Below, piece after piece: positions 1-24,663 of a stretch of 64,000 nucleotides of DNA; position 1 is the stretch's first letter, and each line of letters starts with the position of its first letter. The notes below the pieces were generated by a model. That model saw only the letters and a list, made by a program, of their open reading frames with translations, was not told the DNA's origin and did not search any database. This stretch comes from an uncultured Alistipes sp. (lineage in GTDB: Bacteria; Bacteroidota; Bacteroidia; Bacteroidales; Rikenellaceae), in NCBI GenBank assembly GCA_944321765.1, contig CALUMQ010000026.1:62001-126000 (forward strand), in the 5' to 3' direction. The position numbers and the translations under genes were made by a program.

Positions 1-1
1 G

Positions 2-2518: not shown

Positions 2519-2536
2519 ACAAGTCCAAGATACACT

Positions 2537-4384
2537 ATGAAAAAGAATATCATCTATTTTCTGCTTATGTCGTTGCTGCTGTTGCCCGGGTGTGCCGATT
2601 ACCTGGACCAGGACCCCGAACAGCTCAACTCGATGGACAAGATCTTCTCCTCGGACATCGAAACGCGCAAGTGGTACAACCGCATCTACAGCAGCGATTT
2701 CATGGTCACGGAGATGCACTACAGCGGTCAGATTCCCTATTTCTGGTGCACCGACGAGTCGGCCTACACCATGGAGTCGTTCGTGCGCAACATCTCCGAG
2801 GGCAAGATGAGCCCCGACAACTACTACGGATATACGGGTTACAACCTCTACTTCTTCGTGCGCTACTACCAGGCGATCCGTCACTGCAACCTCTTCCTGG
2901 AGAACGTCGACCGCTGCATCGAGCTGGGTGAGGTCGAGCGTCGCTCGATGAAGGCCGAAGCACGGTTCATGCGGGCCTTCTACCACTTCCAGCTGCTGCG
3001 TCTCTACGGACCCATTCCCATTGTGGATCACAGCCGTTCGGCCTCGGAGATCAGCATGACCCAGGCCCGCAACACGCTCGAGGAGTGCGTGAAGTGGATC
3101 AACGACGAGATCGACTACGCCTGTGAGAACGGCATGCCCACCGAGCGCAACGAGTCGCTCCAACTGGGTCTTCCGACCGTGGGAGCCGCACGCGCCATCC
3201 AGTCGCGCATGGCGCTGATGGTTGCCAGCCCGCTGTTCAACGGCAACACCGTCTACAAGAACTGGACGAACAAGGACGGCACGGTGCTCATGCCGCAGAC
3301 CTACGACAAGGAGCTGTGGAAGAAGGCCGCCGATGCCGCCAAGGTGGTCATCGCCATGCCGGAGTACGAGCTGCACCGCGCACCCGAAGGGGCGTCGTTC
3401 GACGAAATCGTCGACAACTTCCGCGAGGTGACCACGACCTGGGGAGCCGACAAGAACCGGGAGATCATCTGGGGCTATCCCAACTCCCAGCAGTGGTATG
3501 CGATGTGCGCGCTTCCGGCACGTTGGTACGGCTGGAACGGCCGCTATTCGCTGGCCATCGGCATGGTCAACGACTTCTTCATGGCCGACGGCAGCGTGAG
3601 CCGTCCGCTCGAGGAGTGGTTCGCCGACAAGAAGTTCTCGACCGAGGCCGGAAACGGCACCATCGCCAATACGTTCTGGATGTTCGTGGGCCGCGAGCCG
3701 CGGTTCTACGCCTCGATCCACTTCCCCAACCAGCGCATATCGTATGCCTATCCCAACGAGTCGGACAGCTACCAGGATGAGGACGGCTACGGCATCGTGG
3801 ACTTCTGGTACTCGGGACTGAGCGGCAACGGGAATACGCCGGGCGACAAGAACACCTCGGGATTCTCCGTACGCAAGAACGTCTCGCTGGACTACTGCAG
3901 CAACAAGCAGCAGAGCACGGCGACCCGCATGCTGAACGTGCCCTTCCCGGTGATCCGTCTGGGCGAGGTCTACCTGAACTACGCCGAGGCGATGAACGAA
4001 TACTACGGCGAGGCGGAGCAGGAGGAGGTTCTCTACTACCTCAACCAGATCCGCACGCGCGCCGGCATTCCGCCCTACGAAGGCAAATACACGCAGGACG
4101 AGATGCGTGAGATGATCCGCCACGAGCGCAAGATCGAGCTGGCCTGGGAGTGCAACCGTTACTTCGACGTACGGCGCTGGTTCATCGCCCACGGTCCCGA
4201 AGGGGAGTTCAACCACGACGAGTACGGTCTGGACATGTCGCGCGGCGAGAGCGCCACGGACCCGTCGTTCTTCACGCTGACGAAGGTGGCCAACAAGCGG
4301 TTCGACATCCAGCACTACTTCCTGCCGATCAAGTCGTCGGAGGTGATGCTCAACACGCAGCTGGTCCAGGCGCCGTTCTATTGA
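2537..4384 (+). CDS. SusD/RagB-type surface glycan-binding lipoprotein
   Basis: This is the lid and ligand-binding partner of the SusC upstream, acting at the outer face of the outer membrane. It has 615 residues. The signal peptide ends in lipobox LPGC, followed by ADYLDQDPE, the usual start of a mature SusD. The Tyr/Trp-rich helical core and the C-terminal RKIELAWECNRYFDVRRW segment (about residues 530-550) are typical of the family. It sits second in the operon, 61 nt before the DUF1735-type lipoprotein. The acidic residues after the Cys fit a surface-export signal. Substrate cannot be read from the sequence. Confidence 0.94.
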   Translation: MKKNIIYFLLMSLLLLPGCADYLDQDPEQLNSMDKIFSSDIETRKWYNRIYSSDFMVTEMHYSGQIPYFWCTDESAYTMESFVRNISEGKMSPDNYYGYTGYNLYFFVRYYQAIRHCNLFLENVDRCIELGEVERRSMKAEARFMRAFYHFQLLRLYGPIPIVDHSRSASEISMTQARNTLEECVKWINDEIDYACENGMPTERNESLQLGLPTVGAARAIQSRMALMVASPLFNGNTVYKNWTNKDGTVLMPQTYDKELWKKAADAAKVVIAMPEYELHRAPEGASFDEIVDNFREVTTTWGADKNREIIWGYPNSQQWYAMCALPARWYGWNGRYSLAIGMVNDFFMADGSVSRPLEEWFADKKFSTEAGNGTIANTFWMFVGREPRFYASIHFPNQRISYAYPNESDSYQDEDGYGIVDFWYSGLSGNGNTPGDKNTSGFSVRKNVSLDYCSNKQQSTATRMLNVPFPVIRLGEVYLNYAEAMNEYYGEAEQEEVLYYLNQIRTRAGIPPYEGKYTQDEMREMIRHERKIELAWECNRYFDVRRWFIAHGPEGEFNHDEYGLDMSRGESATDPSFFTLTKVANKRFDIQHYFLPIKSSEVMLNTQLVQAPFY

Positions 4385-4445
4385 TGCGTCCGGCATGCAG
4401 AACCCATGACGAATGTAGTATAATTCACAAATTTGACAAGATAGC

Positions 4446-6137
4446 ATGAAACGACTGTATAAAATATTGATGATGATGGCGTTGCCGCTTGCCGTTGGCA
4501 GCTGCGACGTGGAGTACGATCCGATTGTCATCTACCCGGACGTCACGCTGGAGAACTCGGGACTGACGAACGTTCAGACGATCTCCATCTACCAGAACGA
4601 CGCCTATACCGTGACGCTGGCCCGTACCGAGGGTCTGAGCCGCGAGGCAGCCTTCGACATTGTCCTCGACCAGACGATTCTGGACGAGTACAACGAACTC
4701 AACGGAGCCTCCTATACCATGATGCCCGAGTCGGGCTACACGATCGGGGTCTCGGAGATCGTCTTCCCCGAGAAGAGCAAGACGGCGAGCTTCACCGTGC
4801 AGTTCAAGCCCGAGGAGCTGATCCGCACGGCCGGCTCGATCGAGGCGGCGCAGAACTACGTCATTCCGATCGTCTGCGTGCCGCGCACGACGGTAAACTC
4901 CGGGGAGCAGTACCTGAACACCATCATCCGGGTGACGTTCGACACGCCGAAGGTGACCGTCGAGGCACCGGTGGCTCCCCAGGCGCTGACCTTCATCTCG
5001 GGGGTTCCCGTGTCGCGCACGCTGGCGCTGACCGGCACGTCGAACTTCACGACGCTGGATATCTCCGACCTCACGTTCGCCGCGACGCAGGAGATGGTCG
5101 ACGCCTACAACGCCGAGCAGCAGACCGATTACGTGCTGCTTCCCACGTCGGCCTACACCATCGATCAGGGGAGCTTCGACTCCGAGGCGCTGAGCTTCCA
5201 GTTCAACATCACGGTCGAGGCTTCGGCGCTGGATCCCCAGCAGGTCTATCTGTTGCCGCTGCGGGTGATGAGCAACGCCTGCACGGTGGTGCAGGATGCC
5301 GTCTACTACGTGGTGGTTTCGGTACAGGAGATCCGTGTCACGCTTGAGAATACCGACCGTTACGAGGCTGCGACGAAACTTACGCACACCATCGACCTCA
5401 CACTTTCGCTCAACGGCGCGCTCGACACGGACTTCCCGGTTGAGTTCAGCTACGATCCGTCGCTGATCGCCGCCTACAATGCACAGAAGGGCAAGGAGTA
5501 CAAGGCGCTCGACGCCTCGCGTGTCAGCCTGGAGAACGCCACGATGGAGGCTGGCCGGATGAAGGTTTCGGCGACGGTGAGCGTCGACATGACCGACATC
5601 GGCTTCGACACGGGCGACGAATATGTGCTGCCGCTGGTTCTCGACAAGAGCAAGCTCCCGCAGGGATACATGATGCAGACCGACGACGTGGTCTACGTGC
5701 GCCTGAAGCGGACGTTCTACGGCACCTGGAGCAACCGCACCACGGACAACTACGTGACGGGCACCTCGGGCTGGACGAAGAACAACTACATGAAGGCGAC
5801 GACGCAGCTCAGCGACACGAAGATCAACGGCGTGGCCTACCCCTACAAGAACTGCTACTACAGCTGGTCGACCGGTTACCACTGGTATGTCGGGGAGGAG
5901 TCCTACAACGGGGATGCGAAGAAGCGTGTGGTGCATGTCTTCTCGAAGGTGACCTCCGGGTACACCGAGCAGCAGCAGTTCGACAACACCATGAACAACG
6001 AAAGCTACTTCGACATGGAGACCGGTACCGTCTATTTCAGTTTCGAATATTATTGGAACGACAGCGACAAGCAGCAGGACAAGCGTCAGACGATCCACTG
6101 CTACCTGCAGAGTCCGTTGACACCCGATGAGTTCTGA
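4446..6137 (+). CDS. DUF1735 (BT_3987-like) surface glycan-binding lipoprotein
   Basis: A 563-residue lipoprotein with lipobox VGSC at residues 17-20. The body contains about three beta-sandwich repeats (roughly residues 30-150, 170-290 and 300-410). Each carries the pattern 'YNAEQ..DYVLLP.SAYTID', as in DUF1735/BT_3987-like domains, and a Tyr/Trp-rich C-terminal domain (about 420-563) resembles DUF4361. Proteins of this type directly follow SusD in many utilisation loci and act as extra surface glycan-binding proteins. No catalytic motif is seen. A strong hairpin follows the stop codon, separating this gene from the enzymes downstream. Confidence 0.8.
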   Translation: MKRLYKILMMMALPLAVGSCDVEYDPIVIYPDVTLENSGLTNVQTISIYQNDAYTVTLARTEGLSREAAFDIVLDQTILDEYNELNGASYTMMPESGYTIGVSEIVFPEKSKTASFTVQFKPEELIRTAGSIEAAQNYVIPIVCVPRTTVNSGEQYLNTIIRVTFDTPKVTVEAPVAPQALTFISGVPVSRTLALTGTSNFTTLDISDLTFAATQEMVDAYNAEQQTDYVLLPTSAYTIDQGSFDSEALSFQFNITVEASALDPQQVYLLPLRVMSNACTVVQDAVYYVVVSVQEIRVTLENTDRYEAATKLTHTIDLTLSLNGALDTDFPVEFSYDPSLIAAYNAQKGKEYKALDASRVSLENATMEAGRMKVSATVSVDMTDIGFDTGDEYVLPLVLDKSKLPQGYMMQTDDVVYVRLKRTFYGTWSNRTTDNYVTGTSGWTKNNYMKATTQLSDTKINGVAYPYKNCYYSWSTGYHWYVGEESYNGDAKKRVVHVFSKVTSGYTEQQQFDNTMNNESYFDMETGTVYFSFEYYWNDSDKQQDKRQTIHCYLQSPLTPDEF

Positions 6138-6153
6138 TCGGAATCCGTAATGC

Positions 6154-6207
6154 CGTTTGCCGGATCTTCCGGACGTGTTTCCGTCGTCCGGGAGGTTCCG
6201 GCAAACG
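6154..6207 (+). terminator. Long hairpin between the binding-protein genes and the enzyme genes
   Basis: The outer stem is GTTTGCCGGA (6155-6164) with TCCGGCAAAC (6197-6206), extended by a C-G pair. The inner stem CGGACG/CGTCCG closes a small loop. Only a short T-run (GTTTGTC) follows, so it may be a leaky terminator, an RNA 3'-end stabiliser or both. It would lower expression of downstream genes relative to susCD. Confidence 0.55.
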
Positions 6208-6254
6208 TTTGTCAGAGGATCCGGTCCGGTGTGAATCCGAAAATGTGAAACAGT

Positions 6255-7637
6255 ATGAAGAAAGAGAAAAGTATCCTTTTCAGAGCGATGCTCTGTTTCG
6301 GCATGGCGTTTCTGTGCGCCTGCGGCAGCGACGACAGCGGTGAGAACGGCGGAGGCGGCGGGAATCCCGATCCTCCGGAGGTGAATCCCAATGCCGTGGA
6401 GGTGGTCAACGCCTCGTTCGAGGAGGGCCTCGAGGGGTGGACGCGCGTCAATTTCTACAACGGCGACAAGGTGACCGTCGAGGTGGTCGACGGCGCCGGC
6501 GAGGAGGGCGGCCGCTGCATCAAGATCCAGCAGTTCCCCGAGAACGGGAAGTGCGGCGTGGGCGTCAAGCAGAAACTCACAGGCCTGGAGCCCGACCAGA
6601 TGTACCGCATCTACGCCCGCGTGAAATACTCCGACATCCCGACGGACCAGGGCCGCGGGGCGGTGGTCTTCGACATGTCGACCAAGCAGTATTGGAACGC
6701 TTCGAAGTTCCTCTACGGCACGGAGCTGCGCTACTGGACCACGGTCTATGCCGATTTCCTGGCCCAGGACGACGGCACGGCGGAGATCGTCTGCTCGCTG
6801 GGATTCCGCCTCGGCGGGACGACCAACGGCGGATTCTCGACCGGTACGGCCTATTTCGACAACATCTCGGTGGTCAAGGTCACCGACGAACTCTACATGC
6901 AGGAGGGTGAGCACATCCGTCTGTTCATGGAACCCACGCAGGTCTCGGTATCTCCGGGATTGCTTGCCGAGTGGGTGGGCAACCTCGACCGGATGTACGA
7001 GTCGTATGTCGAGCTGATGGGCCAGGCTCCGCACGAAGGTCGCAAGCTGGCGATCCTCACCACGCGGGGCATCGAGAGCGGTTACTGGGCGCTGGCCGGC
7101 TATCCCATCCTGTGGAGTTCGAACTACTCGGCTGTGACCGATACGATGGACGAGCTTTATGAACACGGCACGTGGAGCTTCGGACTGCTGCACGAGCTGG
7201 GACATGTCTTCAACCTGGGGAATTCGAGCTGGAACTGGAACGACGAGATGTTCGCCAACTTCCGCATGCAGTACGGCCTGGAGCAGAACGACGGCAAGGT
7301 GTGGATGAACAACCGGGTCTACACCGGGCGGGAGATCCTCGACATGTACAAGGAGTCCTACGCCAATACGGTCTATGCGCAGGTCAACGACGACGGCATC
7401 CACTACATGCTGGGGCGGTTGACCGATCCCTCGTGCATCGGCTGGGAGCCCTTCAAGGCGGCGTTCCGCGAGCTGACGACCATGGGCGGCGGCGGATCGA
7501 GCAAGTTCGAGAAGTTCGAGTACCTGCTGTCGCTGCTGTCGAAGTACGCCAGTGAGGAGCAGGGGCGCGACATCGATGTCGAGGCCGAGTTCTTCACCCC
7601 CGAGGAGCTGGCGTCGATCCGCAAGCAGTTGCAATGA
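6255..7637 (+). CDS. Lipoprotein with carbohydrate-binding-like domain and M60-like HExxH zinc site
   Basis: A 460-residue predicted surface metallopeptidase. Lipobox LCAC (residues 20-23) is followed by acidic GSDDSGENGGGGGNPDPPE, a flexible linker. Residues about 50-215 look like a CBM4/9-type beta-sandwich (ASFEEGLEGWT at the start, TAYFDNISVVKV at the end). The C-terminal half carries H313-E-L-G-H317 with a downstream Glu331 (WNWNDE), matching the gluzincin pattern HExxH(8-28)E of M60/enhancin-like proteases, several of which cut mucins. The next gene is a paralogue. Start: first ATG before the signal peptide. M60 membership is my reading of the motif; another zincin family is possible. 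Confidence 0.65.
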   Translation: MKKEKSILFRAMLCFGMAFLCACGSDDSGENGGGGGNPDPPEVNPNAVEVVNASFEEGLEGWTRVNFYNGDKVTVEVVDGAGEEGGRCIKIQQFPENGKCGVGVKQKLTGLEPDQMYRIYARVKYSDIPTDQGRGAVVFDMSTKQYWNASKFLYGTELRYWTTVYADFLAQDDGTAEIVCSLGFRLGGTTNGGFSTGTAYFDNISVVKVTDELYMQEGEHIRLFMEPTQVSVSPGLLAEWVGNLDRMYESYVELMGQAPHEGRKLAILTTRGIESGYWALAGYPILWSSNYSAVTDTMDELYEHGTWSFGLLHELGHVFNLGNSSWNWNDEMFANFRMQYGLEQNDGKVWMNNRVYTGREILDMYKESYANTVYAQVNDDGIHYMLGRLTDPSCIGWEPFKAAFRELTTMGGGGSSKFEKFEYLLSLLSKYASEEQGRDIDVEAEFFTPEELASIRKQLQ

Positions 7638-7678
7638 TCCGTGCGGTTTGAGTCTATCATTAAATCACTTGAGACATC

Positions 7679-8983
7679 ATGAAGAAGATTATCATAGCAA
7701 TTGTCGTCGTGGTCGTGGTTTGCGGCGTCGGTTGGGGGGCGTTCAACCGCAAGGATGCGCTCTATGCGACCGGTTTCGACTCTTCGGGGCAGTTCTCCCG
7801 GGAGTGGCAGATTGACGAAGGGGTGCCCGGAACGGTGGAATACCTCTCTTCGGGAGGATTCGACGATTCGGGATGCGTGAAGATCTCCAGCACGGAGAAG
7901 ACGTCGCTGGCCGTCAAGCACAAACTGACGGGACTCGATCAGGGCCGTCTGTACCGCTTCAGCGCCCGGATGAAGCGTGACAGTGTGAAGGATGGGCGCG
8001 GAGCGGTACTTTATCTCGAACCCCGCGAAGGCATGGAGCAGCCGTGGAACGCATCGGAGTTTGCCTACGGCTCCGGGGAGTGGAGCGAAGTCTACGTGGA
8101 CTTTGTCCCCGACGCCGCGGGCGAAGCGGTGATCTGCTGCGGTCTGGGATTCCCCTGGGGGACCTACAACGGCGGGAAGGCCTCCGGAACGGTCTGGTAC
8201 GACGACGTGCGCGTAACGCCTGCTCCCGAGGAGGCGATCTACGCGGCCGAAAGCAAATACATCACCCTGCGCCTCGACCGGGACAAGGTGACCGTCTCCG
8301 ACGCGGAGATCGGGAAGTGGCTGTCGAACCTCGACCGGGTGTACGAGGCCTACTACGATCTGGTGGGCGGCGTGCCCTTCGGCGGCAAGCGGCTGATGCT
8401 TCTGACCACGCCGGGCATCGAGCCCGGCTACTGGGCGCTGGCCGGCAATCCGATTCTGTGGAACAGCCATGTCGCCGTGTCGAAGCTGCTGGAGCGCACC
8501 GTGGAGTTCGACGACTGGGGTTTCGGCATTCTGCACGAGATCGGCCACGTCTTCAATGTCGGCAACTCGGCGTGGAACTGGAACGACGAGATCTTCGCCA
8601 ACTTCCGCATGTCGTATGCCCTGGAGGTGTGCGACGGGACCATGTCGCAGCGCGACATCTGCTACCGGGGCGCCGACGTGATCAACTACTACAAGATCTT
8701 CTACGACGAGACGCTCGGCGCCGGGATTCCGAAGATGAACGGCGACGCGCTGCACTATACGTTCCTGCGCATCAAGGACCGCTACGGATGGGGCATTTTC
8801 AAGCGCGTGTTCCGGGAGCTGAACACCATGGATCGCGCCGCGATGCCCGAGTTGCGCACGCCGTACGACAAGTTCCTCTATTTCCTCTCGCGGGTATCCG
8901 AGGCTGCGGGAGCCGATGTTCTGGAAGAGACCTACACCCCCGAGGAGCTGAAGCTCATCGAGCAGGCCTTTGCCGAGGCCTGA
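7679..8983 (+). CDS. Paralogous M60-like HExxH protein with N-terminal membrane anchor
   Basis: A 434-residue paralogue of the preceding gene, 41 nt downstream. It has the same layout: a beta-sandwich (about residues 25-180, with 'TVWYDDVRVTPAPE' at its end) then a zincin-like domain with H286-E-I-G-H290 and Glu304 in WNWNDE. Unlike its neighbour it has no clean lipobox: residues 4-15 are a run of Ile/Val followed by Cys-Gly-Val, more like a signal anchor or uncleaved signal peptide, although an atypical lipoprotein signal cannot be excluded. The pair therefore looks like a tandem duplication whose products may sit in different envelope layers. Probable role: cleavage of host glycoproteins; substrate unproven. 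Confidence 0.62.
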   Translation: MKKIIIAIVVVVVVCGVGWGAFNRKDALYATGFDSSGQFSREWQIDEGVPGTVEYLSSGGFDDSGCVKISSTEKTSLAVKHKLTGLDQGRLYRFSARMKRDSVKDGRGAVLYLEPREGMEQPWNASEFAYGSGEWSEVYVDFVPDAAGEAVICCGLGFPWGTYNGGKASGTVWYDDVRVTPAPEEAIYAAESKYITLRLDRDKVTVSDAEIGKWLSNLDRVYEAYYDLVGGVPFGGKRLMLLTTPGIEPGYWALAGNPILWNSHVAVSKLLERTVEFDDWGFGILHEIGHVFNVGNSAWNWNDEIFANFRMSYALEVCDGTMSQRDICYRGADVINYYKIFYDETLGAGIPKMNGDALHYTFLRIKDRYGWGIFKRVFRELNTMDRAAMPELRTPYDKFLYFLSRVSEAAGADVLEETYTPEELKLIEQAFAEA

Positions 8984-8990
8984 GTTCCGG

Positions 8991-9026
8991 GCCCGGCGGC
9001 AGGGTCGCATGACGCCTCCGCCGGGC
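8991..9026 (+). terminator. GC hairpin in the 175-nt gap after the second M60-like gene
   Basis: Stem GCCCGGCGG (8991-8999) with CCGCCGGGC (9018-9026). A second hairpin, CCGGGCG (9076-9082) with CGCCCGG (9094-9100), lies in the same gap. Neither has a clear T-run, so readthrough into the next gene is likely. Confidence 0.4.
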
Positions 9027-9158
9027 TCCCTAACCCAGCTTGTCCTTTAGCCCCGCAGGTTCCCCTCCCAAACCCCCGGGCGCGAAATTTTTACGCCCGG
9101 AATGCCTCTGCGTTTGGGAAATTATTGCTAATTTGGCCCGAACTTTCAACACTAACCC

Positions 9159-11195
9159 ATGATCAAACAACTCCTCCTGCCGACCCTTCTGTCGCTTGTC
9201 TGCGGCACGGTCACCGCCCAGCGCTGGGCGATTGCCCCTGAAGAACATCGTATTTACTGGACCCCCACGGCCGCGTCGCTGCCCCACAGCGACCACATCG
9301 AGATGAGCGGCGAACAGATGGCCTTTGTCCTCCGCTGGGGCATCAATGACGACGGTTCGTTCCGCGAGGAGCGCTCGCTGGTGTTCCCCATGCTGCGCAC
9401 GGTGCCCAACGACACGCACGCAAGCCTGATGTACCGCATGGCCACGGACATACCGTCGCTGCTGGGCGTCAACGGACTGGTGCTGCAGGACGAATGCGTC
9501 GACTCGCTCTCGATCGACGGCGCACTGACGGTGCGCAGCCGCTGGGCCGTCGGACTGATGAACATCGGCGCGGCGCGCGACAGCCGTCCGACGCCGTGCC
9601 TCGAGATGACGCGGCGGATCTTCCCCTCGCGGACCCTTCCGCTGATGTGCGAACACTACACGCTGCGCAACATCGGCTCGTCGACGCTGAGCATCTCGAT
9701 TCCCGAACTTTCGCAGGTCGTGACGACCGATCCCGCCAGAGGGGTCGACGGCTCCTATGTCATTCGCTGTGACCTCACGGGCGCCGGGACGCAGTATCTC
9801 AATCCGTCCGACTCGCTCACCTTCGGGGTGGTCTTCCAGGCCCTTCGGGCCGGGGAGGAGCCGCTGCATCCGGACGTTGCCGCGGAGTACGCCTCCCGCA
9901 TGGAGTTCGTGCGGGGCGTCATCGACGCGAACCTCGTCCTCGAAACACCCGACGAGGTGATCGATACGGAGTTCCGCTACGCGAAGCTGCGCGCCTCGGA
10001 GAGCATCTTCAAGACGCGCGGCGGCTACATGCACGCCCCGGGCGGCGAATCCTACTACGCGGCGATGTGGGCCAACGACCAGGCCGAATACGTCAATCCC
10101 TTCTTCCCGTTCCTCGGCTACGACATCGGCAATGCGTCGGCGATCAACACCTACCGGCACTTCGCACGCTTCATGAACGACGCCTACAAGCCCATCCCCA
10201 GCTCGATCATCGCCGAAGGGCTCGATTTCTGGAGCTCGGCCGGGGACCGCGGCGATGCGGCGATGGTGGCCTACGGCGCGGCCCGCTACGCCCTGGCGCG
10301 GGGCGATGCGTCCGAGGCCCGGGAGCTGTGGCCGCTGATCGAGTGGTGCCTGGAGTACTGCCGGCGCCAGCTGACGCCCGAGGGCGTCGTGGCTTCGGAC
10401 TCCGACGAGCTCGAAGGTCGCTTCCCGTCGGGTGACGCCAACCTCTGCACCTCGACGCTCTACTACGACGCGCTGCGTTCGGCCGCGCTGCTGGGCCGCG
10501 ATCTCGGCATCGCTTCCTCGCGCACGCGCCGCTACACGCGTGATGCCGACGCCCTGGCGCGGGCCATCGACCGCTACTTCGCCGCCAATGTCAGCGGCTA
10601 CAGGACCTACTGCTACTACGACGGCAACACAACCCTCCGCTCGTGGATCTGCATGCCGCTGATCGTGGGCCTTTACGACCGTGCCGAGGGGACCGTCGCC
10701 GCGCTGCTCGGCCCCGAGCTGCGCACCGAGGACGGACTGCTGACCGAGCAGGGCAGCACGACCTTCTGGGACCGTGCGACGCTCTACGCCCTGCGGGGTG
10801 TCTTCCAGGCCGGCTACACCGAGGAGGCGCTCCAATGGCTGCAGCACAACTCGTCGCGGCGCCTGCTGGGCGACCACGTGCCCTATCCGATCGAGGCGTG
10901 GCCCGAGGGGTCGCAGCGGCACCTTTCGGCCGAGAGCGGCCTCTACTGCCGCATCATCACCGAGGGCATGTTCGGCATCCGTCCCACGGGGCTGCGGTCG
11001 TTCGACATGACGCCGCGTCTTCCGGCCGAGTGGCCGCGGATGGCGCTGCGCCGCGTGCAGGCCTTCGGCACGACGTTCGACCTCGAGGTCGAACGGCTCG
11101 ATGACGGACGCCTTTCGGTGACGGTCGACGCCGGCGGAACCCCCATGCGGCATGTGATCGCTCCCGGAGAGACGCTTCCGGTGAAGTTTTCGTAA
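9159..11195 (+). CDS. Secreted six-hairpin ((alpha/alpha)6) glycosidase-like protein, family unassigned
   Basis: A 678-residue secreted protein with signal peptide ending TVTAQ (about residue 21). The N-terminal third (about 25-260) is beta-rich; the C-terminal part (about 280-620) has the repeated helical hairpins of six-hairpin glycosidases, with candidate acid/base residues in WANDQAEYV, SSIIAEGLDFW and LTEQGSTTFWDRATLY. A short beta domain follows (LRSFDMTPRLPAEWPRM), as in GH78, GH95 and related families. I cannot place it in a specific CAZy family. It lies between the M60-like pair and the GH110 gene, so a terminal sugar of a host glycan is a reasonable guess for its substrate. Confidence 0.65.
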   Translation: MIKQLLLPTLLSLVCGTVTAQRWAIAPEEHRIYWTPTAASLPHSDHIEMSGEQMAFVLRWGINDDGSFREERSLVFPMLRTVPNDTHASLMYRMATDIPSLLGVNGLVLQDECVDSLSIDGALTVRSRWAVGLMNIGAARDSRPTPCLEMTRRIFPSRTLPLMCEHYTLRNIGSSTLSISIPELSQVVTTDPARGVDGSYVIRCDLTGAGTQYLNPSDSLTFGVVFQALRAGEEPLHPDVAAEYASRMEFVRGVIDANLVLETPDEVIDTEFRYAKLRASESIFKTRGGYMHAPGGESYYAAMWANDQAEYVNPFFPFLGYDIGNASAINTYRHFARFMNDAYKPIPSSIIAEGLDFWSSAGDRGDAAMVAYGAARYALARGDASEARELWPLIEWCLEYCRRQLTPEGVVASDSDELEGRFPSGDANLCTSTLYYDALRSAALLGRDLGIASSRTRRYTRDADALARAIDRYFAANVSGYRTYCYYDGNTTLRSWICMPLIVGLYDRAEGTVAALLGPELRTEDGLLTEQGSTTFWDRATLYALRGVFQAGYTEEALQWLQHNSSRRLLGDHVPYPIEAWPEGSQRHLSAESGLYCRIITEGMFGIRPTGLRSFDMTPRLPAEWPRMALRRVQAFGTTFDLEVERLDDGRLSVTVDAGGTPMRHVIAPGETLPVKFS

Positions 11196-11214
11196 CCGGG
11201 TTTCCGGGTGATTC

Positions 11215-11259
11215 CCGGGGAGGGGAGCGGCCAGCACTCCCCTCTTCGGATATCCCCGG
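11215..11259 (+). other. Nested hairpin in the 220-nt gap before the GH110 gene
   Basis: Outer arms CCGGGGA (11215-11221) and TCCCCGG (11253-11259) enclose inner arms GGGGAG (11222-11227) and CTCCCC (11237-11242). The rest of the gap (to 11415) repeats degenerate 'CCCGAAGAC-CTCTTT' blocks and has no gene. Confidence 0.4.
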
Positions 11260-11415
11260 AACGGTCGCTCTCCCTTTTCCCCGAAGACGCTCTTTTTGAA
11301 GATGCTCTTTTCCCCGGAAGGCCCTCTTCCCGAAGACCTTCCCGATAAGTTGTTTACCTTTTCCTCTCCCCCGAAAACCCTTTTTTGAAACCCAACTTCT
11401 GAACCCGAACTTCTC

Positions 11416-13164
11416 ATGAAAAGAATCCGAAACATGGTCGGAGCCCTCGTCGCAGCCTGTGCGATGATGGCGTGCGCCGCGGGCGAATCCGACAAAACCG
11501 TCTACCTGCAGGATTTCCTGACTCCCGGCGCCGCGGAGACCGACGCCGTTCCGGCGCTGCGTGCGGCGCTGGAGCAATGCGCGGCCGTCGGCGCCACGAC
11601 GCTCGTGCTTCCGGGCGGGACGCTGCACATGCGTCCCGACCTGGCGGTGGAAAAGTACCAGTTCATCAGCAACAACAACGAAAGCCTCAAGCGCATCGCC
11701 TTCGATCTGTGCGGCCTGCACGACTTCACGATCGAGGGCAACGGCACCGAACTGCTCTTCACGGGCTTCATCTCGCCGTTCAACCTCGAAGGGTGCCGCA
11801 ACGTGACGATCCGTGACCTGTCGGTGGACTTCACCCGCACGTTCAACTCCGAAGGCGTGGTGGTCGGCAAGGGCCCGGGGTGGCTCGACATCCGCTTTCC
11901 CGAGGCGTACCGCTACCGGATCGTCAACGGATGCCTGCAGTTCTACGACGAGCAGGGGACGGTCTATCCCTTCTCCAACCTGCTGGAGTTCGACGCCGTG
12001 AAGCGCGAGCCGGCGTTCCAGGCGCACGACTTCTGGCTCTCGGGCTCGACGATCCCCGCCGAGCTGCGGCCCGACGGCACCGTGCGCATCCTGCGCGAGG
12101 ATCTCACGGCCACGATCGGCAACGTGATGGTCTTCGGGGCCGCCGCGCGCTACAATCCGTGCTTCACGCTGGCCGACTGCGCGGGAGTGACGCTCCGCGA
12201 CGTGAACATCTACCACTGCGGCGGCATGGGCGTCATCGCGCAGCGCAGCCGCGACATCGAACTCAACGGCGTGTCGGTTGTCCCGGCCCCGGGCAAGGGA
12301 CGCATGATCAGCATTACGGCCGATGCCACGCACTATGTCAACTGCGCGGGCTACATCCGCATGCTCGACTGCGTGTTCGAGAACCAGAAGGACGACGCGA
12401 CGAATATCCACGGTCTCTACATGGTCGTCGACAGCGTGCTCTCTCCCGACCGGCTGCTGGTGCGCTGGCGCAACTCCGGGCAGTACGGCGTGGACTTCAT
12501 CAAGCCGGGGATGACCCTGGAACTTGTCGACAACAAGAATATCGAGACCTATGCCCGCCGGGAGGTCCGTGCGGTGAAGCGTCTGAACAAGATCTACACC
12601 GAGGTGACCTTCGCCGAACCGCTGCCCGAAGAGGTTGAACGGCTGCACGTGGTAGCTGCCGACGACGAGTATCCCGACGTGCTGATCAAGGGGTGCCGCC
12701 TGCGCGGAAACCGCGCCCGGGGCCTGCTGCTGGGCTCCCGGGGCCGAACGGTCATCGAGGACAACTACTTCCATATCGCGGGAGCGGCGATTCTCTTCGA
12801 GGGCGACGCCAACTATTGGTACGAGCAGTCGGGTGTGCGGGACGTGCTGATCCGCAACAACGTCTTCGAGAACGGCAACTACGGCTGCAGCTCCTGGGGC
12901 TCGGCCTGCATCGCCGGCGGCAGCGGCATTCCCGAGCGAGGCGATAGCCGCTACCACCGCAACGTCCGCGTCGAGGGGAATACCTTCCGGGTTTTCGACC
13001 CGCGCATCATCAACGTCTATTGTGTGGACGGCTTCACCTTCACGGCCGACAACAAGGTGGAGTTCACCCGCGACTACCCCTACACGCGCGGGGAGACGCG
13101 TTGCATCATCACCGATGACTGCGACCACGTGACCATCGCGAAGGAGGTCGTTTACAAACCCTGA
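11416..13164 (+). CDS. GH110-type alpha-1,3-galactosidase, right-handed beta-helix
   Basis: A 582-residue lipoprotein or secreted enzyme (signal ends MMACAAG) predicted to remove terminal alpha-1,3-linked galactose from blood-group B and/or linear alpha-Gal epitopes. The sequence follows the GH110 pattern known from Bacteroides: 'YLQDFLTPGAAETDAVPALRAAL', then EKYQFISNNNESLKRIAF, then 'FISPFNLEGCRNVTIRDLSVDF', followed by many beta-helix turns and 'GKGRMISITADATHYVNC' and ENQKDDATNIHG with conserved acidic residues. The downstream esterase starts 17 nt later, so they are co-expressed. Preference for branched versus linear Gal cannot be read here. Confidence 0.87.
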   Translation: MKRIRNMVGALVAACAMMACAAGESDKTVYLQDFLTPGAAETDAVPALRAALEQCAAVGATTLVLPGGTLHMRPDLAVEKYQFISNNNESLKRIAFDLCGLHDFTIEGNGTELLFTGFISPFNLEGCRNVTIRDLSVDFTRTFNSEGVVVGKGPGWLDIRFPEAYRYRIVNGCLQFYDEQGTVYPFSNLLEFDAVKREPAFQAHDFWLSGSTIPAELRPDGTVRILREDLTATIGNVMVFGAAARYNPCFTLADCAGVTLRDVNIYHCGGMGVIAQRSRDIELNGVSVVPAPGKGRMISITADATHYVNCAGYIRMLDCVFENQKDDATNIHGLYMVVDSVLSPDRLLVRWRNSGQYGVDFIKPGMTLELVDNKNIETYARREVRAVKRLNKIYTEVTFAEPLPEEVERLHVVAADDEYPDVLIKGCRLRGNRARGLLLGSRGRTVIEDNYFHIAGAAILFEGDANYWYEQSGVRDVLIRNNVFENGNYGCSSWGSACIAGGSGIPERGDSRYHRNVRVEGNTFRVFDPRIINVYCVDGFTFTADNKVEFTRDYPYTRGETRCIITDDCDHVTIAKEVVYKP

Positions 13165-13181
13165 AATTGAGGAGAACGATT

Positions 13182-14654
13182 ATGAAACGTCTGTTTCTGG
13201 CCGTTGTGGCGCTGATGGCTGCCGCACGGCTGTCGGCCGAAATCCGCCTCCCGGCGGTGCTGGGGAGCAACATGGTGCTGCAGCGCAACACCGAGGTGAA
13301 CTTCTGGGGCGAGGCTTCGCCGCGCAGCAAGGTGCGCGTCACCACGTCGTGGAACGACCGCAGCTACGAGACCCGCTCCGACGCGGCGGGCAAATGGTCG
13401 CTGAAGATCGCCACGGGCGAGGCCGGCGGCCCCTACACGATCCGCGTGAGCGACGGCAGGGAGCTCGTTCTGGAGAATGTCCTGCTGGGCGAGGTGTGGA
13501 TCTGCTCCGGGCAGTCGAACATGGAGATGCCCGTCTGCGGCTTCATGTACCAGCCCGTGGAGGGGAGCGTCGAGGCGATCACCGGGGCGTGCGACTACCC
13601 CGAAATCCGTCTGTTCACCGTCCCGAAGGTCTCCTCGGAGACGCCCCGCGAGGATTGCGAGGCCGCCTGGGAGTGCCCGACGCCGGCGACGGTCGGCGCC
13701 TTCAGCGCCGTGGGCTACTTCTTCGGGCAGACGCTCAACCGGATTCTCGACATCCCCATCGGCCTGATCACCCCGAACTGGGGCGGCTCGACGATCGAGA
13801 GCTGGATGACCGAGGCGTCGATCGACGCAACGCCCGGCATCGACTACGCGGTGGCGAAGTCGGGGACTTACGACAACAGCATTCCCCAGCGCCTCTACAA
13901 CGGCATGATCCTTCCCGTATGCCGCTATACGGCCCGGGGCTTCATCTGGTACCAGGGCGAGTCGAACCGCAAGAACTGGTACGACTACTGCGCCCTTCAG
14001 GTTTCGCTCGTCAAGCTGTGGCGCGAGACGTGGGGCGACGACACCATGCCGTTCTACTTCACGCAGCTGGCCCCTTACCGCTACGAGGGCGACAACCTGC
14101 GCTCGCTGCCGCTGGTGATCGAGGCGCAGTACCGCGCCATGGCCCAAATCCCCCGTTCGGGCATCGCTGCGACGACCGACCTGGGCAACCCGACCTGCAT
14201 CCATCCGCAGCGCAAGCGGGAGGTGGGCATGCGCCTGGCCTACCTTGCGCTGGCCAACGACTACGGCATCAAGGGGCTTCCGGCTCCTGCGCCGACCTAC
14301 AAGTCGATGGTGCGCGACGGGAAGAAGCTGGTGCTGAGCTTCAACAACCTCTCGGAGCGCAACACGTGGAACGATCCGAACAGTCTGGTAGGGTATCTGC
14401 CCGACGACTACCTGCGCCCCGCGGGCTTCGAGATCGCCGGTGAGGACCGGGTGTTCCACCCGGCGAAGGCCAACCTCGTGTGGTGGGAGAACAAGATCGA
14501 GGTCTTCTGCGACGAGGTGCCCGAACCGGTTGCCGTGCGCTACGCATTCAGGAATTATTGCCCCGAGGCCAACGTGGTGACGACCATGGGGCAGCCGCTG
14601 GCGCCCTTCCGCACGGATTCGTGGCCCGTGGACGATATCGGCGAGATCCGGTAG
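13182..14654 (+). CDS. Sialate O-acetylesterase (SGNH family)
   Basis: Predicted to remove 9-O-acetyl groups from sialic acid so that sialidases or further enzymes can act. A 490-residue protein with signal peptide MKRLFLAVVALMAAARLSA. The N-terminal beta domain (AEIRLPAVLGSNMVLQ) is typical. The catalytic Ser lies in GQSNMEMP, and the FIWYQGESN block with oxyanion residues follows about 150 residues later. The ATG at 13182 is preferred over an upstream TTG because the signal peptide begins there and GAGGAG lies just upstream. Last gene of the utilisation operon; a 12-bp hairpin follows. Confidence 0.9.
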   Translation: MKRLFLAVVALMAAARLSAEIRLPAVLGSNMVLQRNTEVNFWGEASPRSKVRVTTSWNDRSYETRSDAAGKWSLKIATGEAGGPYTIRVSDGRELVLENVLLGEVWICSGQSNMEMPVCGFMYQPVEGSVEAITGACDYPEIRLFTVPKVSSETPREDCEAAWECPTPATVGAFSAVGYFFGQTLNRILDIPIGLITPNWGGSTIESWMTEASIDATPGIDYAVAKSGTYDNSIPQRLYNGMILPVCRYTARGFIWYQGESNRKNWYDYCALQVSLVKLWRETWGDDTMPFYFTQLAPYRYEGDNLRSLPLVIEAQYRAMAQIPRSGIAATTDLGNPTCIHPQRKREVGMRLAYLALANDYGIKGLPAPAPTYKSMVRDGKKLVLSFNNLSERNTWNDPNSLVGYLPDDYLRPAGFEIAGEDRVFHPAKANLVWWENKIEVFCDEVPEPVAVRYAFRNYCPEANVVTTMGQPLAPFRTDSWPVDDIGEIR

Positions 14655-14924: not shown

Positions 14925-14956
14925 TTTGCATTTCCGGACGAAAAATTTTATCTTTG
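14925..14956 (+). promoter_or_regulatory. Bacteroidota-type promoter of the pseudo-hybrid regulator
   Basis: A -33 TTTG (14925-14928), 20-nt spacer and -7 TATCTTTG (14949-14956) match the Bacteroidota consensus. Transcription should start near 14961, giving a leader of about 57 nt. Confidence 0.75.
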
Positions 14957-15017: not shown

Positions 15018-18000
15018 ATGACTGCTATGAAACTCGGATTCCTGCGTGCGATCTGGTTGTGCGGAGTGTTGCTGGCATGCCGCACAGGGTTGGGTATGGA
15101 GTACAAGTTCCGCTATTATACCGACAACGACGGACTCTCGTCGAACACGATCCACTGCTTCTATCAGGACGACAAGGGCTATGTCTGGGTGGGCACCTCC
15201 GACGGCCTCGACCGCTTCAACTCCTGCGACTTCACCAACTACCGCTCCGATTACCGGGTCCCCGACTGCCTGGGGACCAACTGCGTGTACAGCCTTTGCG
15301 GGGAGAACTTCATGAACAGCGACCGGATCTGGGTGGGCACCTCCGACGGGGTCTACGTCTACGACCCGAAGGACGAGTCGTTCACGCCGGTCCCGATCGA
15401 ACGCAACGGGGAGGTGCTGCGCAACTTCCAAGCCTATACGCTCGTCTCGGACCGCGTGGGCAACATCTGGATCGGAACCATCGGCGACGGACTCTTTCGC
15501 TACAACCTGCGCACGGGGAGCGTCGAGCGCTACGACAGCGAGACATGCCCCGAGACCTTTTCGTCGAACGTGATCGTGAAGATCCTGCTCAGCGCCGGGA
15601 ACCAGGTGTGGGTCGCCTCGGGCGGAGGCCCCATGCTGAGCCGCTACAACCCCGAGACCAACCGGTTCACCACCTTCCGCGTCGAGGACTCGCTCACGCA
15701 CAAACCCATCGGGCGGATCTGCGCCCTTTGCCAGGACTCCTTCGGCGACCTCTGGATCGCCGGCGGCGAGGGCGAGCTCTACAAGTTCGAATTCTCGCGG
15801 CAGACCTTTACGGGGTATTATCCGGCGCCGGGGACGTCGTACGGCCGCGTGCGGGAGCTTCTCGAATATGTTCCGGGCAAGCTGCTGATGGGCACGGAGA
15901 ACGGCCTGGTGGCCTTCGACGCCAAGGGCCGGAACTTCGTGCAGCTCGACGCCGGGACGAGCAACCGCAACGGACGTCTGAACGACAAGTTCATCCACTC
16001 GATGCTCAAGGACCGCGAGGGCGGCATCTGGATCGGAACCTACTTCGGCGGCATCAACTACATCTCGCCCCTGGGGTCGCTCTTCGAGACGATCGAGCCG
16101 GGTGCCGGGTGCGGCCATGTCATCAGCAAACTCTGCGAAGACCCCCAGGGCAACCTCTGGATCGGCAGCGACGACGGAGGCCTGAGCCTCTACGATCCCC
16201 GTACGGGGAGGTACGAGCCTGTGAACGTCGATGCGGAGCATCCGTCGCTGAACATCCATGCGCTGACGATCGACGGCGGATGGCTGTGGGTCGGGACCTT
16301 CGGCAACGGCCTCTACCGCATGGATCGCGGGAGCCGCGCCGTGAAGCACTTCGCGCGGGCCGACGTCGGGAGCGACAACCTGAATGTCTACTCCGCCCTG
16401 CGGGATTCGCGGGGCAGGCTGTGGTTCGGAACCAAGGAGGGCATCTGCCGTTATGACGATGCCGCGCAGCGGATCGAGAGCCTCCTCCCCCTGGGTCACA
16501 ACAGCGACGTGGTCGACATCTGCGAGGATCCGCAGGGCAACGTGTGGTTTGCGTCGCTGAGCCGCGGACTGATCCGCTATTCGGTCTCTGAAGACGCCTT
16601 CTCCTTCTTCTCGGAGAAGCCCGAACTGGGGTTGTCGGATTTCGTGAGCTGTCTGGCCGTGGAGAACGAATACCTCTGGATCGGAACCCACGGCCGCGGA
16701 CTCTGCCGCTACGATATCGCCGCGGACGAGGTGGTTAGGGTCTTCGACGACACGACCTACGGCAACTGCGCCATCTTCCAGATCATCCAGAACGGCAGCG
16801 AGCTGTGGCTGACGACCAACCGGGGCGTACTGAAGTTCAGCTACCGGGATTCGCAGAAGAAGATCTACAAATACACCTCCGAGGACGGGCTGCTGGCCAA
16901 TATCTTCAACGCCAACTCCGGAATCAAGTCCTCCACGGGACACATCTACATCGGCAGCAACAACGGCATCAACCGCTTCTATCCCTACGACTTCACGCGC
17001 CGGGAGAACTCCGCGCGCCTGACGGTCGTCTTCCCCGATTTCAAGCTCTCGAACCAGCGGGTGCCGCTCGACGGACGGGTTCTCCGTGCGACGATCGACT
17101 GCCAGCGGAGCGTGCGTTTCCGCAGCCGCAAGGGGTCGTTCAGCCTCGATTTCATCGCCCTGAACTTCTCGTCGCCGCTGCGGACCGTCTACCGCTACCG
17201 GCTGGAGAATTTCGACGACGAGTGGCTGGTCACCGATCCCGAGGAGACCTCGGGCGTGCAGCACGTCTCCTATACGAACCTTCCGTCGGGCAGCTACCGC
17301 TTCGTGGTCAGCGCCTCGAACAACGGCGAGGAGTTCGGCGAGGAGGCCGAGGTGCGCATCGACATTCTGCCCCCGTGGTGGCTGGGAAAGGGCATGATCG
17401 CTCTCTACGTGCTGCTGGGGCTCGCGGCCGTCGGATTCGGGGGATACCTCCTGCGGCGGCGGATCCTCCGCACGCAGCGCGAACAGATCGCCTCGCTCGC
17501 CCGCAAGAACCGTCTCGACCTGCTGGAGGCCAAGGTCGAGTTCTTCGACGAGGTGGCCCGGGGGATCCAGACACCCGTTTCGCTGATCTCCGCACCGATC
17601 GAGGCGATCGCCCAGCAGGTGGAGCATCCGGAGCGGATCCGCGAGGATCTGGGCATCGTCCGCAAGAACTGCGAAAAGCTGCTGGAGATCTGCCGGAAGA
17701 TCTCGAATCTGAAATACTCCGAGGCCGAGGGCGTGCGGAGCTCCGTGACGCGGAAGGAGCCTGCCCGGCCGGTCGATCTGCGGGACGTGCTGTACGGACT
17801 CGTCACGTCGATCCGCGAGGAGTTTCCGCAAGAGCCCCTGCCGGCGCCGGCGCCTGAAGAGCCGCAGGATGCCGCTCCGGCGCCGCAGTCGGCGTCCGGC
17901 GAGCGTTCGGAGGGTCGGGAATTCCCCCCCCCTCTGCGAGTGCTTCTTGTTGAAAATGACAGGGATAGTATTGACTTCCTGATGCGGCATCTCTCCGGAG

Positions 18001-18695
18001 CGTTTGCCGTCGAGTGTGTGAACCGGGCACGTGAGGCGCTCGATGCGCTGCGCACGCAGCGCTTCTCGGCCGTCATTGCCAACGTGCGCCTTGCCGGAGA
18101 GACGGACGGCTTTGCGTTGTGCGAGGCGATCCGCGCCGATTCGCGGCTGAACCACCTCCCGGTCATCCTGCTCGGAGTGGGCGGTTCGGAAAGCGACAAG
18201 ATCCGCGGCATACGGGCCGGCGCCGACGTGTTCCTCGAGAAGCCCGAGTCGGCGAGCAGCCTCGCGGAGCAGATCCGGGCGCTCGTCGCGCTGCGCAACC
18301 AGCTGCGGCTGAAATACTCCCGCATGCCCTACCTGCCGCTCGAGGAGGACTCCCTGCCCGAAGGATCCCGCTTCATGGAGCAGGTGCACCGCTACATCAC
18401 CGACAACATCTCCAATGCGGCGATGACCGTCGACGACATTGCCGATGCGGTGAACGTGAGCCGCACGCTGCTCTTCTCGCGGATCAAGGCGCTGACCGGT
18501 ACGACGCCCAACGAACTGCTGCGTTCGATCCGGCTGAAGGTGGCCGCCGAGCTGCTCGCGGCGCCGAACAACCTCCGTGTGACGGAGATCTGCTACATGG
18601 TGGGCTTCACCTCGACCTCCTACTTTGCCAAGTGCTTCAAGGCGCAGTACGGCACGCTCCCGACCGAATGGATGGAGCGCTACCGCAAGGAGTAA
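15018..18695 (+). CDS. Degenerate hybrid two-component-type regulator (pseudokinase, no ATPase, AraC output)
   Basis: A 1225-residue membrane regulator beside the glycan operon. Order: signal peptide; periplasmic two-component propeller repeats (about 30-700, many 'WIGT..GGL.RY'); Y_Y_Y domain (about 706-785); TM (792-813); DHp-like helices (about 830-900); Ala/Pro/Glu linker; receiver-like domain (973-1090); AraC-type HTH (about 1120-1225). The usual SHEFRTPL phospho-His motif reads ARGIQTPV, with Arg848 at the His position. No HATPase domain (N, G1, G2 boxes) is present. In the receiver the phospho-Asp is Asn1022 and the acidic pair is Glu979-Asn980; Lys1075 remains. Start ATG at 15018 has GGAG 6 nt upstream. 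It probably still binds DNA, but not by phosphorelay. Confidence 0.9.
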   Translation: MTAMKLGFLRAIWLCGVLLACRTGLGMEYKFRYYTDNDGLSSNTIHCFYQDDKGYVWVGTSDGLDRFNSCDFTNYRSDYRVPDCLGTNCVYSLCGENFMNSDRIWVGTSDGVYVYDPKDESFTPVPIERNGEVLRNFQAYTLVSDRVGNIWIGTIGDGLFRYNLRTGSVERYDSETCPETFSSNVIVKILLSAGNQVWVASGGGPMLSRYNPETNRFTTFRVEDSLTHKPIGRICALCQDSFGDLWIAGGEGELYKFEFSRQTFTGYYPAPGTSYGRVRELLEYVPGKLLMGTENGLVAFDAKGRNFVQLDAGTSNRNGRLNDKFIHSMLKDREGGIWIGTYFGGINYISPLGSLFETIEPGAGCGHVISKLCEDPQGNLWIGSDDGGLSLYDPRTGRYEPVNVDAEHPSLNIHALTIDGGWLWVGTFGNGLYRMDRGSRAVKHFARADVGSDNLNVYSALRDSRGRLWFGTKEGICRYDDAAQRIESLLPLGHNSDVVDICEDPQGNVWFASLSRGLIRYSVSEDAFSFFSEKPELGLSDFVSCLAVENEYLWIGTHGRGLCRYDIAADEVVRVFDDTTYGNCAIFQIIQNGSELWLTTNRGVLKFSYRDSQKKIYKYTSEDGLLANIFNANSGIKSSTGHIYIGSNNGINRFYPYDFTRRENSARLTVVFPDFKLSNQRVPLDGRVLRATIDCQRSVRFRSRKGSFSLDFIALNFSSPLRTVYRYRLENFDDEWLVTDPEETSGVQHVSYTNLPSGSYRFVVSASNNGEEFGEEAEVRIDILPPWWLGKGMIALYVLLGLAAVGFGGYLLRRRILRTQREQIASLARKNRLDLLEAKVEFFDEVARGIQTPVSLISAPIEAIAQQVEHPERIREDLGIVRKNCEKLLEICRKISNLKYSEAEGVRSSVTRKEPARPVDLRDVLYGLVTSIREEFPQEPLPAPAPEEPQDAAPAPQSASGERSEGREFPPPLRVLLVENDRDSIDFLMRHLSGAFAVECVNRAREALDALRTQRFSAVIANVRLAGETDGFALCEAIRADSRLNHLPVILLGVGGSESDKIRGIRAGADVFLEKPESASSLAEQIRALVALRNQLRLKYSRMPYLPLEEDSLPEGSRFMEQVHRYITDNISNAAMTVDDIADAVNVSRTLLFSRIKALTGTTPNELLRSIRLKVAAELLAAPNNLRVTEICYMVGFTSTSYFAKCFKAQYGTLPTEWMERYRKE

Positions 18696-18747: not shown

Positions 18748-18779
18748 AAGCAGCGGAATCCATGGGAATTCCGCTGCTT
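18748..18779. terminator. Bidirectional hairpin between convergent genes
   Basis: A 12-bp stem, AAGCAGCGGAAT (18748-18759) with ATTCCGCTGCTT (18768-18779), lies between the stop codons of the regulator (+) and the M13 peptidase (-). T-rich DNA follows mainly in the minus direction. Confidence 0.65.
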
Positions 18780-18809
18780 CGGCGTTTGAGCCCTCCTTCG
18801 GAGCGAGAG

Positions 18810-20849: not shown

Positions 20850-20876
20850 GATGTTGTCGGTTCGGGTATCTGTCAA

Positions 20877-20917
20877 GAAAAACGGAGGCCCGGAGGATCT
20901 CCGGAGCGCTCCGTTTT
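20877..20917. terminator. Terminator downstream of pgk
   Basis: AACGGAG (20881-20887) pairs with CTCCGTT (20909-20915), with an inner CCGGAG/CTCCGG pair. On the minus strand five T residues follow (complement of 20878-20882); on the plus strand TTTT follows. Confidence 0.75.
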
Positions 20918-24658: not shown

Positions 24659-24663
24659 AAATA

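Follow-up and report, generated by a model that had tools for sequence, protein, structure and literature searches.

Loss of the phosphorelay in a predicted one-step transmembrane regulator of a host-glycan locus from an uncultured Alistipes

Canonical hybrid two-component systems (HTCSs) of Bacteroides, such as BT4663, BT4124, and BT3334, combine a propeller/Y_Y_Y sensor, a transmembrane (TM) helix, a DHp hairpin, a receiver (REC), and an AraC-type output domain in that order, and are linked to SusCD loci. In the available portion of the study by Gao, Wu and Stock (PMC11253607), most unphosphorylated HTCSs are reported to hold their DNA-binding domain (DBD) through an S/CHIP motif in the receiver together with output D and K residues, and phosphorylation is reported to open this S/CHIP-D-K lock, while substitutions in the lock motif of two HTCSs freed DNA binding from phosphorylation. 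The same text reports HTCSs without the full motif, which is thus typical rather than strictly defining, places non-consensus lock members mostly in host-glycan loci, and describes BT4236 (CSIP-EK), in which Q848 occupies the His site and for which the authors suggest a phosphorylation-independent mechanism (Gao et al. 2024); there, only the His site and the motif are given as changed, with the alpha8 Lys kept. SusR-type one-step regulators likewise place a periplasmic sensor and a cytoplasmic DBD on one chain with no hybrid relay, and are a separate family by the description accessible in PMC3878776. Here we analyzed P0001, a regulator encoded in a 64,000-nucleotide stretch of DNA (the window; positions 62,001 to 126,000 of contig CALUMQ010000026.1, assembly GCA_944321765.1) from an uncultured Alistipes sp. 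P0001 shares the domain order and SusCD linkage of canonical HTCSs but is without the phospho-His, the ATPase domain, the phospho-Asp, and the S/CHIP-D-K lock; unlike BT4236, it has lost the ATPase domain and the receiver sites and shares its His loss with a whole clade, and unlike SusR it descends from an HTCS. We propose, with a probability of roughly 0.72, that P0001 derives from a hybrid two-component system and now acts as a one-step transmembrane regulator with no phosphate relay of its own. As phosphorylation independence has already been suggested for BT4236, P0001 is an extreme form and not a new category. The features of the gene are as follows.

15018..18695, + strand: pseudo-hybrid two-component regulator, 1225 residues (open frame, Pfam domains, purifying selection)
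15099..17366, + strand: periplasmic propeller and Y_Y_Y sensor, residues ~28-783 (Pfam Reg_prop and Y_Y_Y; match to 4a2l, a hybrid two-component sensor)
17376..17462, + strand: TM helix, residues ~787-815 (hydropathy peak at residue 794; unbroken helix in the model)
17463..17732, + strand: pseudo-DHp helical hairpin, residues ~816-905 (alignment; two long helices predicted)
17559-17561, + strand: Arg848 at the phospho-His site (alignment)
17733..17930, + strand: linker where the HATPase domain should be (short DHp-REC spacer; mostly low predicted local distance difference test (pLDDT) scores, one short helix)
17924..17932, + strand: homopolymer of nine C (C9) in the linker just before the receiver (sequence)
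17934..18287, + strand: pseudo-receiver, residues ~973-1090 (Pfam Response_reg, E 1.8e-13; alignment; receiver fold in the model)
from 18150, + strand: alpha3-beta4 lock motif NHLP, residues 1045-1048 (lock table)
18363-18365, + strand: lock residue G1116, just upstream of the HTH (lock table)
18438..18680, + strand: AraC-type HTH output, residues 1141-1221 (Pfam HTH_18, E 1.2e-19)
18480-18482, + strand: lock residue R1155 (lock table)

Pfam matches in the 1,225-residue frame comprised Reg_prop, Y_Y_Y, Response_reg, and HTH_18/HTH_AraC, and neither HisKA nor HATPase_c matched P0001 at E ≤ 0.001. The first-pass annotation of this DNA had described a fully open frame (15018-18695) with an intact propeller, Y_Y_Y, TM segment, and AraC HTH, and this description was borne out by translation, Pfam, hydropathy, and the structural model; the sensor match, 4a2l, we take to be BT4663. 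Alignment confirmed that Arg848 stands in place of the DHp His and that a linker replaces the HATPase domain, the DHp-to-REC stretch spanning 115 residues in P0001 versus 219-278 in His-containing rows with a complete kinase and receiver. The receiver reads E979-N980 at the acidic pair, N1022 for the phospho-Asp, and Gly for the conserved Thr (VILLG), with K1075 retained. While N980, N1022, and the kept Lys had been called correctly, E979, which had also been counted as a loss, is the normal residue, since nearly every His-containing row has ED or DD at this pair, and only the second acid has been lost, by a D-to-N change at 980. P0001 thus has the sensor, AraC output, and SusCD linkage of a canonical HTCS and is without its phospho-His, HATPase_c domain, full receiver set, and lock, and because the chemistry that defines an HTCS fails we do not file it as a functional one. 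Its architecture, a sensor and a DBD on one membrane-spanning chain with no working phosphotransfer parts, is that of a one-component transmembrane regulator.

The search for the same losses in relatives that the first-pass annotation had proposed uncovered a clade. Thirteen of 180 genomes of the genus matched P0001 at E ≤ 1e-125, a cut-off that more diverged members would escape, and ten of the 180 carry a relay-dead clade member: the window's own genome (G000), G066, G163, G164, G170, G048, G085, G075, G115, and G174. The other three matching genomes (G009, G086, and G172) kept the His in the rows examined (L031, L032, and G172), as did all seven sequences, along with the receiver Asp and Lys, from the seven genomes besides our own that matched at E ≤ 1e-135 among 393 genomes of the order. 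In the alignment, none of the ten clade members has His at the DHp site, the column holding R in P0001, G066, G164, G163, and G174, E in G170, N in G048/G085, and T in G075/G115. In a tree of the sensor columns, the nine clade rows (the frameshifted G085 was omitted) form one side of a branch with a Shimodaira-Hasegawa-like approximate likelihood ratio test value of 100 and the topology (G174,((G075,G115),((G170,G048),(P0001,(G066,(G164,G163)))))). Recent loss in one strain is ruled out by the clade-wide presence, the shared His loss, and this branch.

The relatives retain the relay to different degrees. The ATPase domain is gone in 7/9, with spacers of 81-115 residues in the ATPase-less clade members and no HATPase_c match at E ≤ 0.1 in G170, G115, G075, G048, or G164, while G066 and G174 keep an ATPase-sized region. 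In G066 this region gave sub-threshold matches (HisKA, E 4.9e-5; HATPase_c, E 0.0039) and in the receiver the second acid, Asp, and Lys remain, with V at the first acid and G for the Thr; in G174, HisKA, HATPase_c, and Response_reg were all without a match at E ≤ 0.1, and Asp and Lys are present in the aligned receiver columns. Hence a fused ATPase-like region, which had been named as a finding that would speak against this reading of P0001, does occur in a relative, but as a sub-threshold remnant only. As for orthologues with an intact His and Asp, named likewise, no relative has the His, and the phospho-Asp column holds Asp in two of nine (G066 and G174) and E, G, or A in the other seven. 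As G066 falls within the P0001 group on the tree, P0001 and G164/G163, whose linkers differ from each other, appear to have lost the ATPase domain separately; the (G170,G048) and (G075,G115) branches would add at least one further loss, giving at least three in-frame excisions, provided that the tree holds and that no lineage regained the domain. Read from these alignments, the His was lost earlier than the receiver Asp in the P0001 group, and G066 is a likely intermediate in the dismantling of the relay.

Sequence evolution within the clade points to a protein under constraint. By the Nei-Gojobori method, the ratio of nonsynonymous to synonymous substitution rates (dN/dS) over the whole gene was 0.213, 0.209, 0.141, and 0.144 for the four near pairs P0001-G066, P0001-G164, G066-G164, and G075-G115, with values in the same order of 0.10, 0.12, 0.015, and 0 for the HTH, which is the most conserved domain in these pairs (92-100% identity), and ranges of 0.14-0.17 for the sensor and 0.13-0.23 for the pseudo-receiver. 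Three distant pairs gave 0.24-0.31 with synonymous sites near saturation, and two very close pairs are little informative: G164-G163 (0.124 gene-wide, and 1.0 in the receiver, where very few sites have changed) and G048-G085 (0.57, with 672 codons in the comparison). The regulator frame is open in 9/10 clade members. Slow pseudogene decay would account for the differing substitutions at each relay residue and for the frameshifted G085, but the low gene-wide ratios and nearly unchanged HTH of the four near pairs, the open frames, and the fact that the sole indel within the gene between G085 and G048 is a run-length change, a reversible kind, make it very improbable, in line with the first-pass view that simple decay was unlikely.

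Judged from the alignment, the REC-DBD lock of P0001 is broken as well, NHLP-G-R standing against the consensus S/CHIP-D-K. We scored the lock in 70 rows, that is, 75 proteins less five that were truncated, masked, or gapped at scored columns (L031, L091, L094, L098, and L114). The lock was incomplete in 16/16 His-less versus 16/54 His-containing rows, and the alpha8 Lys was lost in 15/16 versus 2/54; among the His-less rows, own_C37, which has no alignable DHp, had its His state set by hand to missing and was scored as lost. In a second sample, drawn from the order as the best 60 of ~85 listed candidates of at least 1200 residues with strong Y_Y_Y scores, 49 of the 60 were HTCSs; L170 alone had lost the His and alone had lost the Lys, which was kept in all 48 His-containing proteins. 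Pooling both samples, the alpha8 Lys is missing from 16 of 17 His-less and 2 of 102 His-containing proteins. Since the lock is also broken, no phosphate should be needed to free the DBD. This bears equally on another account, that P0001 is a constitutive DNA binder or repressor whose sensor only tunes or releases binding, which overlaps with one-step regulation so that the odds of the two are not exclusive: loss of the lock predicts phosphate-free binding, and B. thetaiotaomicron BT2391 (FHIP-QK), for which such a mode has been proposed, is reported in the accessible text of PMC11253607 to repress its own locus. The constraint on the sensor in the four near pairs suggests, however, that signal input matters, and the direction of control is unreadable from sequence; we regard constitutive binding as a possible but not a favoured account.

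A model of residues 785-1225 from AlphaFold2, built on a 31-sequence alignment, had a mean pLDDT of 82.5 and a predicted template modelling score (pTM) of 0.50; as this alignment held His-containing relatives, it may pull the prediction towards their fold. In the model the TM segment runs as one helix into the first DHp helix and is followed by a second long helix, the linker is mostly disordered, and the receiver and HTH folds are complete. Foldseek matched the model to receivers with a TM-score of ~0.9 by target length, and 12aw was a structural match of REC-HTH. The hairpin and receiver, both seen in the model, are thus predicted to persist as a folded scaffold without chemistry. In the mechanism that we propose, a host-glycan fragment would bind the periplasmic propeller/Y_Y_Y sensor dimer, and the ligand-driven movement would pass through the TM helix to the retained, catalytically dead DHp hairpin, whereby two pseudo-receivers and AraC domains, with their DBDs free in the unphosphorylated state, would be positioned or spaced on a direct repeat upstream of susC. 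The transmission of movement through the hairpin to paired outputs is proposed on the basis of the predicted anatomy and of what is known of HTCS sensor dimers, and the ligand, dimer geometry, use of the operator, and direction of control (activation or repression) are likewise putative.

The regulator adjoins genes for the use of host glycans, as listed here.

1..14654, + strand: probable target operon (Pfam, synteny; both the single operon and its control by the regulator are presumptive)
14925..14956, + strand: promoter-like elements, TTTG (14925-14928) and TATCTTTG (14949-14956) with 20 bases between (direct sequence read)

The operon comprises a SusC-type TonB receptor that begins before the window, SusD, a BT_3987-like protein, two M60-like peptidases (one match below its Pfam cut-off), a gene of unknown function (9159-11195), a GLAA-B (GH110-like) gene (11416-13164), and a SASA esterase gene (13167-14654). 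The in-window part of the SusC-type receptor alone had no Pfam match; its whole frame (L072:9253-12516) matched Plug and CarbopepD_reg_2. Mucin-type glycans are the targets of GH110 enzymes, M60-like peptidases, and sialate esterases. In stretches of 8.6-24 kb around the regulator of each relative, whose neighbouring genes were compared with the window's proteins only and may include a separate ATPase gene, a GH110-like homologue lies near the regulator in 9/9 relatives (partial at the stretch edge in G075) and a SASA esterase in 7/9; M60-like peptidase homologues occur in four (G066, G164, G170, and G174), some stretches being too short to reach, and the SusC-type receptor and SusD recur in G164, the sole stretch covering both whole. 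The short stretch of the His-containing G172 had no GH110, SASA, or M60-like homologue. The promoter noted in the first pass is present: TTTG and TATCTTTG, presumably the Bacteroidota promoter consensus, align in G066, G164, and G163, with TTTG exact and one change in the second element in G066, while much of the upstream spacer diverges in these genomes.

A direct repeat, ATCGTAC-N13-ATCGTAC, with a period of 20-21 bases lies upstream of susC just before the window (G000:C26:61221-61247), and the pattern ATCGTRC-N13/14-ATCGTRC occurs once per genome, always before susC, in all four genomes of the near subclade (G000, G066, G164, and G163). HTCS sites are reported, in the accessible text of PMC3878776, as long-spaced direct repeats. 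A decoy, acting as a dominant-negative or as a buffer of the ligand with its regulatory role lost, would fit the dead relay and kept sensor; since the HTH is the most conserved domain in the near pairs and the repeat is kept before susC in 4/4, we find this account hardly credible. Immediately after the regulator, at 18762-22235, lies a 1,157-residue frame with no Pfam match, which is found at 68-80% identity in G066, G163, and G164 (start only in G164).

Several observations weigh against one-step regulation by a retained scaffold. Distant members share just 26-44% identity in DHp and 33-43% in REC, weak conservation by which both may be mere spacers, and the HTH of G048 and G170 is 53% identical, below the sensor at 59%. 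The pTM of 0.50, for a model that is a monomer, leaves domain placement unsure. The repeat is absent at the same stringency from G048, G085, G075, G115, and G174, and likewise from G023; both G170 hits, and two in G054, are without a SusC match in the surrounding 3 kb. As for the lock, it is also incomplete in His-containing proteins (16/54 and 18/48 in the two samples), own_C37 has lost its relay yet kept the alpha8 Lys, and own_C38 keeps SHIP-D. The 70-row tree has four His-state changes, too few for a sign test of co-loss to reach significance, and some independent pairs run opposite for one lock measure; with four independent pairs only, proven co-evolution of lock and His is not claimed.

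Finally, G066 and G174 carry the receiver Asp and Lys, so that phosphorylation from outside is possible in those two. Output driven in trans, by another kinase or through a hetero-dimer with an intact hybrid regulator, would also draw on the two hybrid regulators of the window's genome that have His, Asp, and Lys and on the intact hybrid kinase at 23331-28127, 4.6 kb downstream of the regulator, whose homologue in G066 keeps this order. That kinase, however, has its own receiver and an adjoining NtrC-type regulator, P0001 itself has N980 and N1022, the latter no normal phospho-acceptor, and the Asp is replaced in 7/9 relatives; the partnership with another kinase that had been raised for P0001 is therefore weak, and control in trans is unlikely. 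The view that P0001 works without His-Asp transfer of its own is supported computationally by the conservation of the clade, purifying selection, synteny, and the broken lock. P0001 has lost its relay and lock motif, and keeps an open frame, a sensor, an HTH, and linkage to a host-glycan locus.

Loss of the His is found beyond this clade. In the window's genome, three of the five HTCS-like genes found are relay-dead, the other two being own_C38 (G000:C38, L066:3606-7796; His->Q, Asp->G, Lys->L) and own_C37 (G000:C37, L065:6006-10697). Further His-less hybrid regulators are L115 and L119 (His->Y), L116 and L121 (His->Q), and L170 (His->N), which form two groups in the genus and one (L170) in another family of the order. 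His-loss frequencies in genus and order (10/41 versus 1/49, the 41 being the evaluable HTCS-like frames of 25 genomes, 43 minus L094 and L098) were not used, the order sample being selective. A one-step layout exists in the genus, since L094:4486-7782 (- strand) encodes a 1,099-residue protein of sensor-TM-AraC layout with neither a kinase nor a receiver match; it has R at the place of the alpha8 Lys, and this unrelated regulator shows a possible endpoint layout of relay loss.

A further layer of control may lie in the C9 run before the receiver. In the two other frames a stop comes 9 or 18 codons after it, ahead of both REC and HTH, so that a change of one base would leave a membrane sensor without output; P0001 thus carries an in-frame homopolymer of at least eight bases whose length change truncates the product, as in phase-variable contingency loci. 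The accessible description of such loci in Helicobacter canadensis (PMC2823697) likewise has an in-frame run and a frameshift on length change, whereas the length of the P0001 run is known from assemblies, one length per genome. All ten clade genes have a G or C run of 8-9 bases, in four main places: C9 in the linker in P0001, G066, G164, G163, and G170, and, counting codons from the start of the open frame, G9 at codon 548 in G048 (G8 in G085), 597 in G075/G115, and 37 in G174. At its shortened run the G085 gene is split into two frames; it differs from that of G048 by nine substitutions and this single indel. The wider GH110/SASA/regulator stretches of these two species representatives (L069/L071) share 99.6% identity across 12.8 kb, with a total of five gap openings, which suggests either that the locus was transferred recently or that the two species are very close. 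G163 and G164 differ at two runs before susC (C9 versus C8) and at one T run, and the regulator run is nine in P0001, G066, G164, and G163 alike.

Runs of nine are also in excess across the genus. In HTCS-centred loci totalling 515,916 bases, near-identical pairs included, G/C runs of 6, 7, 8, 9, and 10 or more numbered 24, 1, 6, 27, and 0; in the window's genome, 45 runs are exactly nine bases long and 16 exactly eight, and subtraction gives three of ten; and nines outnumber eights in 51 of 61 genus genomes, equal them in one, and are fewer in nine (1,840 versus 706 in total). Codon resampling of seven clade genes put the chance of a run of nine at 0.03-0.21 for each gene, so that a single run is weak evidence, and the case for phase variation comes from the runs in all ten genes, the genus-wide excess of nine, and the length differences between close relatives. 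Against it, several of 30 loci checked (some of which overlap or repeat) had no long frame through the run, and assembly error may be a source of the length differences; neutral slippage that comes to rest at nine bases is a serious alternative explanation of the genome-wide excess. We put phase variation of the regulator gene, by ON/OFF switching through C9 length change, at even odds. Such runs do not go with His loss, being carried by 13 of 48 other genus HTCSs with the His and one of seven other His-less ones. The intact hybrid kinase gene contains C runs of 8, 9, and 9 at 24990, 25081, and 25183, and a further run lies in the following feature.

49988-52945, - strand: TonB-receptor frame, 985 residues (Plug, CarbopepD_reg_2)

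It is a C9 run at 52857-52865, read as G9 in the coding direction, and lies ~27 codons into that frame. In titles and abstract openings of the open-access literature neither slipped-strand phase variation in Alistipes nor an HTCS without its ATPase was seen to be reported, and open-access listings likewise yielded no intermediate-bearing lineage, broken lock in the same proteins, or conserved homopolymer of this kind.

On the current view, phosphorylation is needed to release the DNA-binding half of a hybrid regulator from its built-in lock. A clade in which the kinase chemistry and the lock are both lost, while the sensor and output stay under selection, is a natural experiment on which parts of such a signalling protein are dispensable, and makes it testable whether ligand-driven movement alone can control an HTCS-type AraC output and whether slipping homopolymers diversify glycan foraging in gut Bacteroidales. 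Taken together, we tentatively suggest that this clade may have dismantled relay and lock stepwise to arrive at a one-step switch, that a selected nine-base run would flip glycan foraging ON or OFF in each cell, and that nine-base runs may form a genus-wide contingency system.

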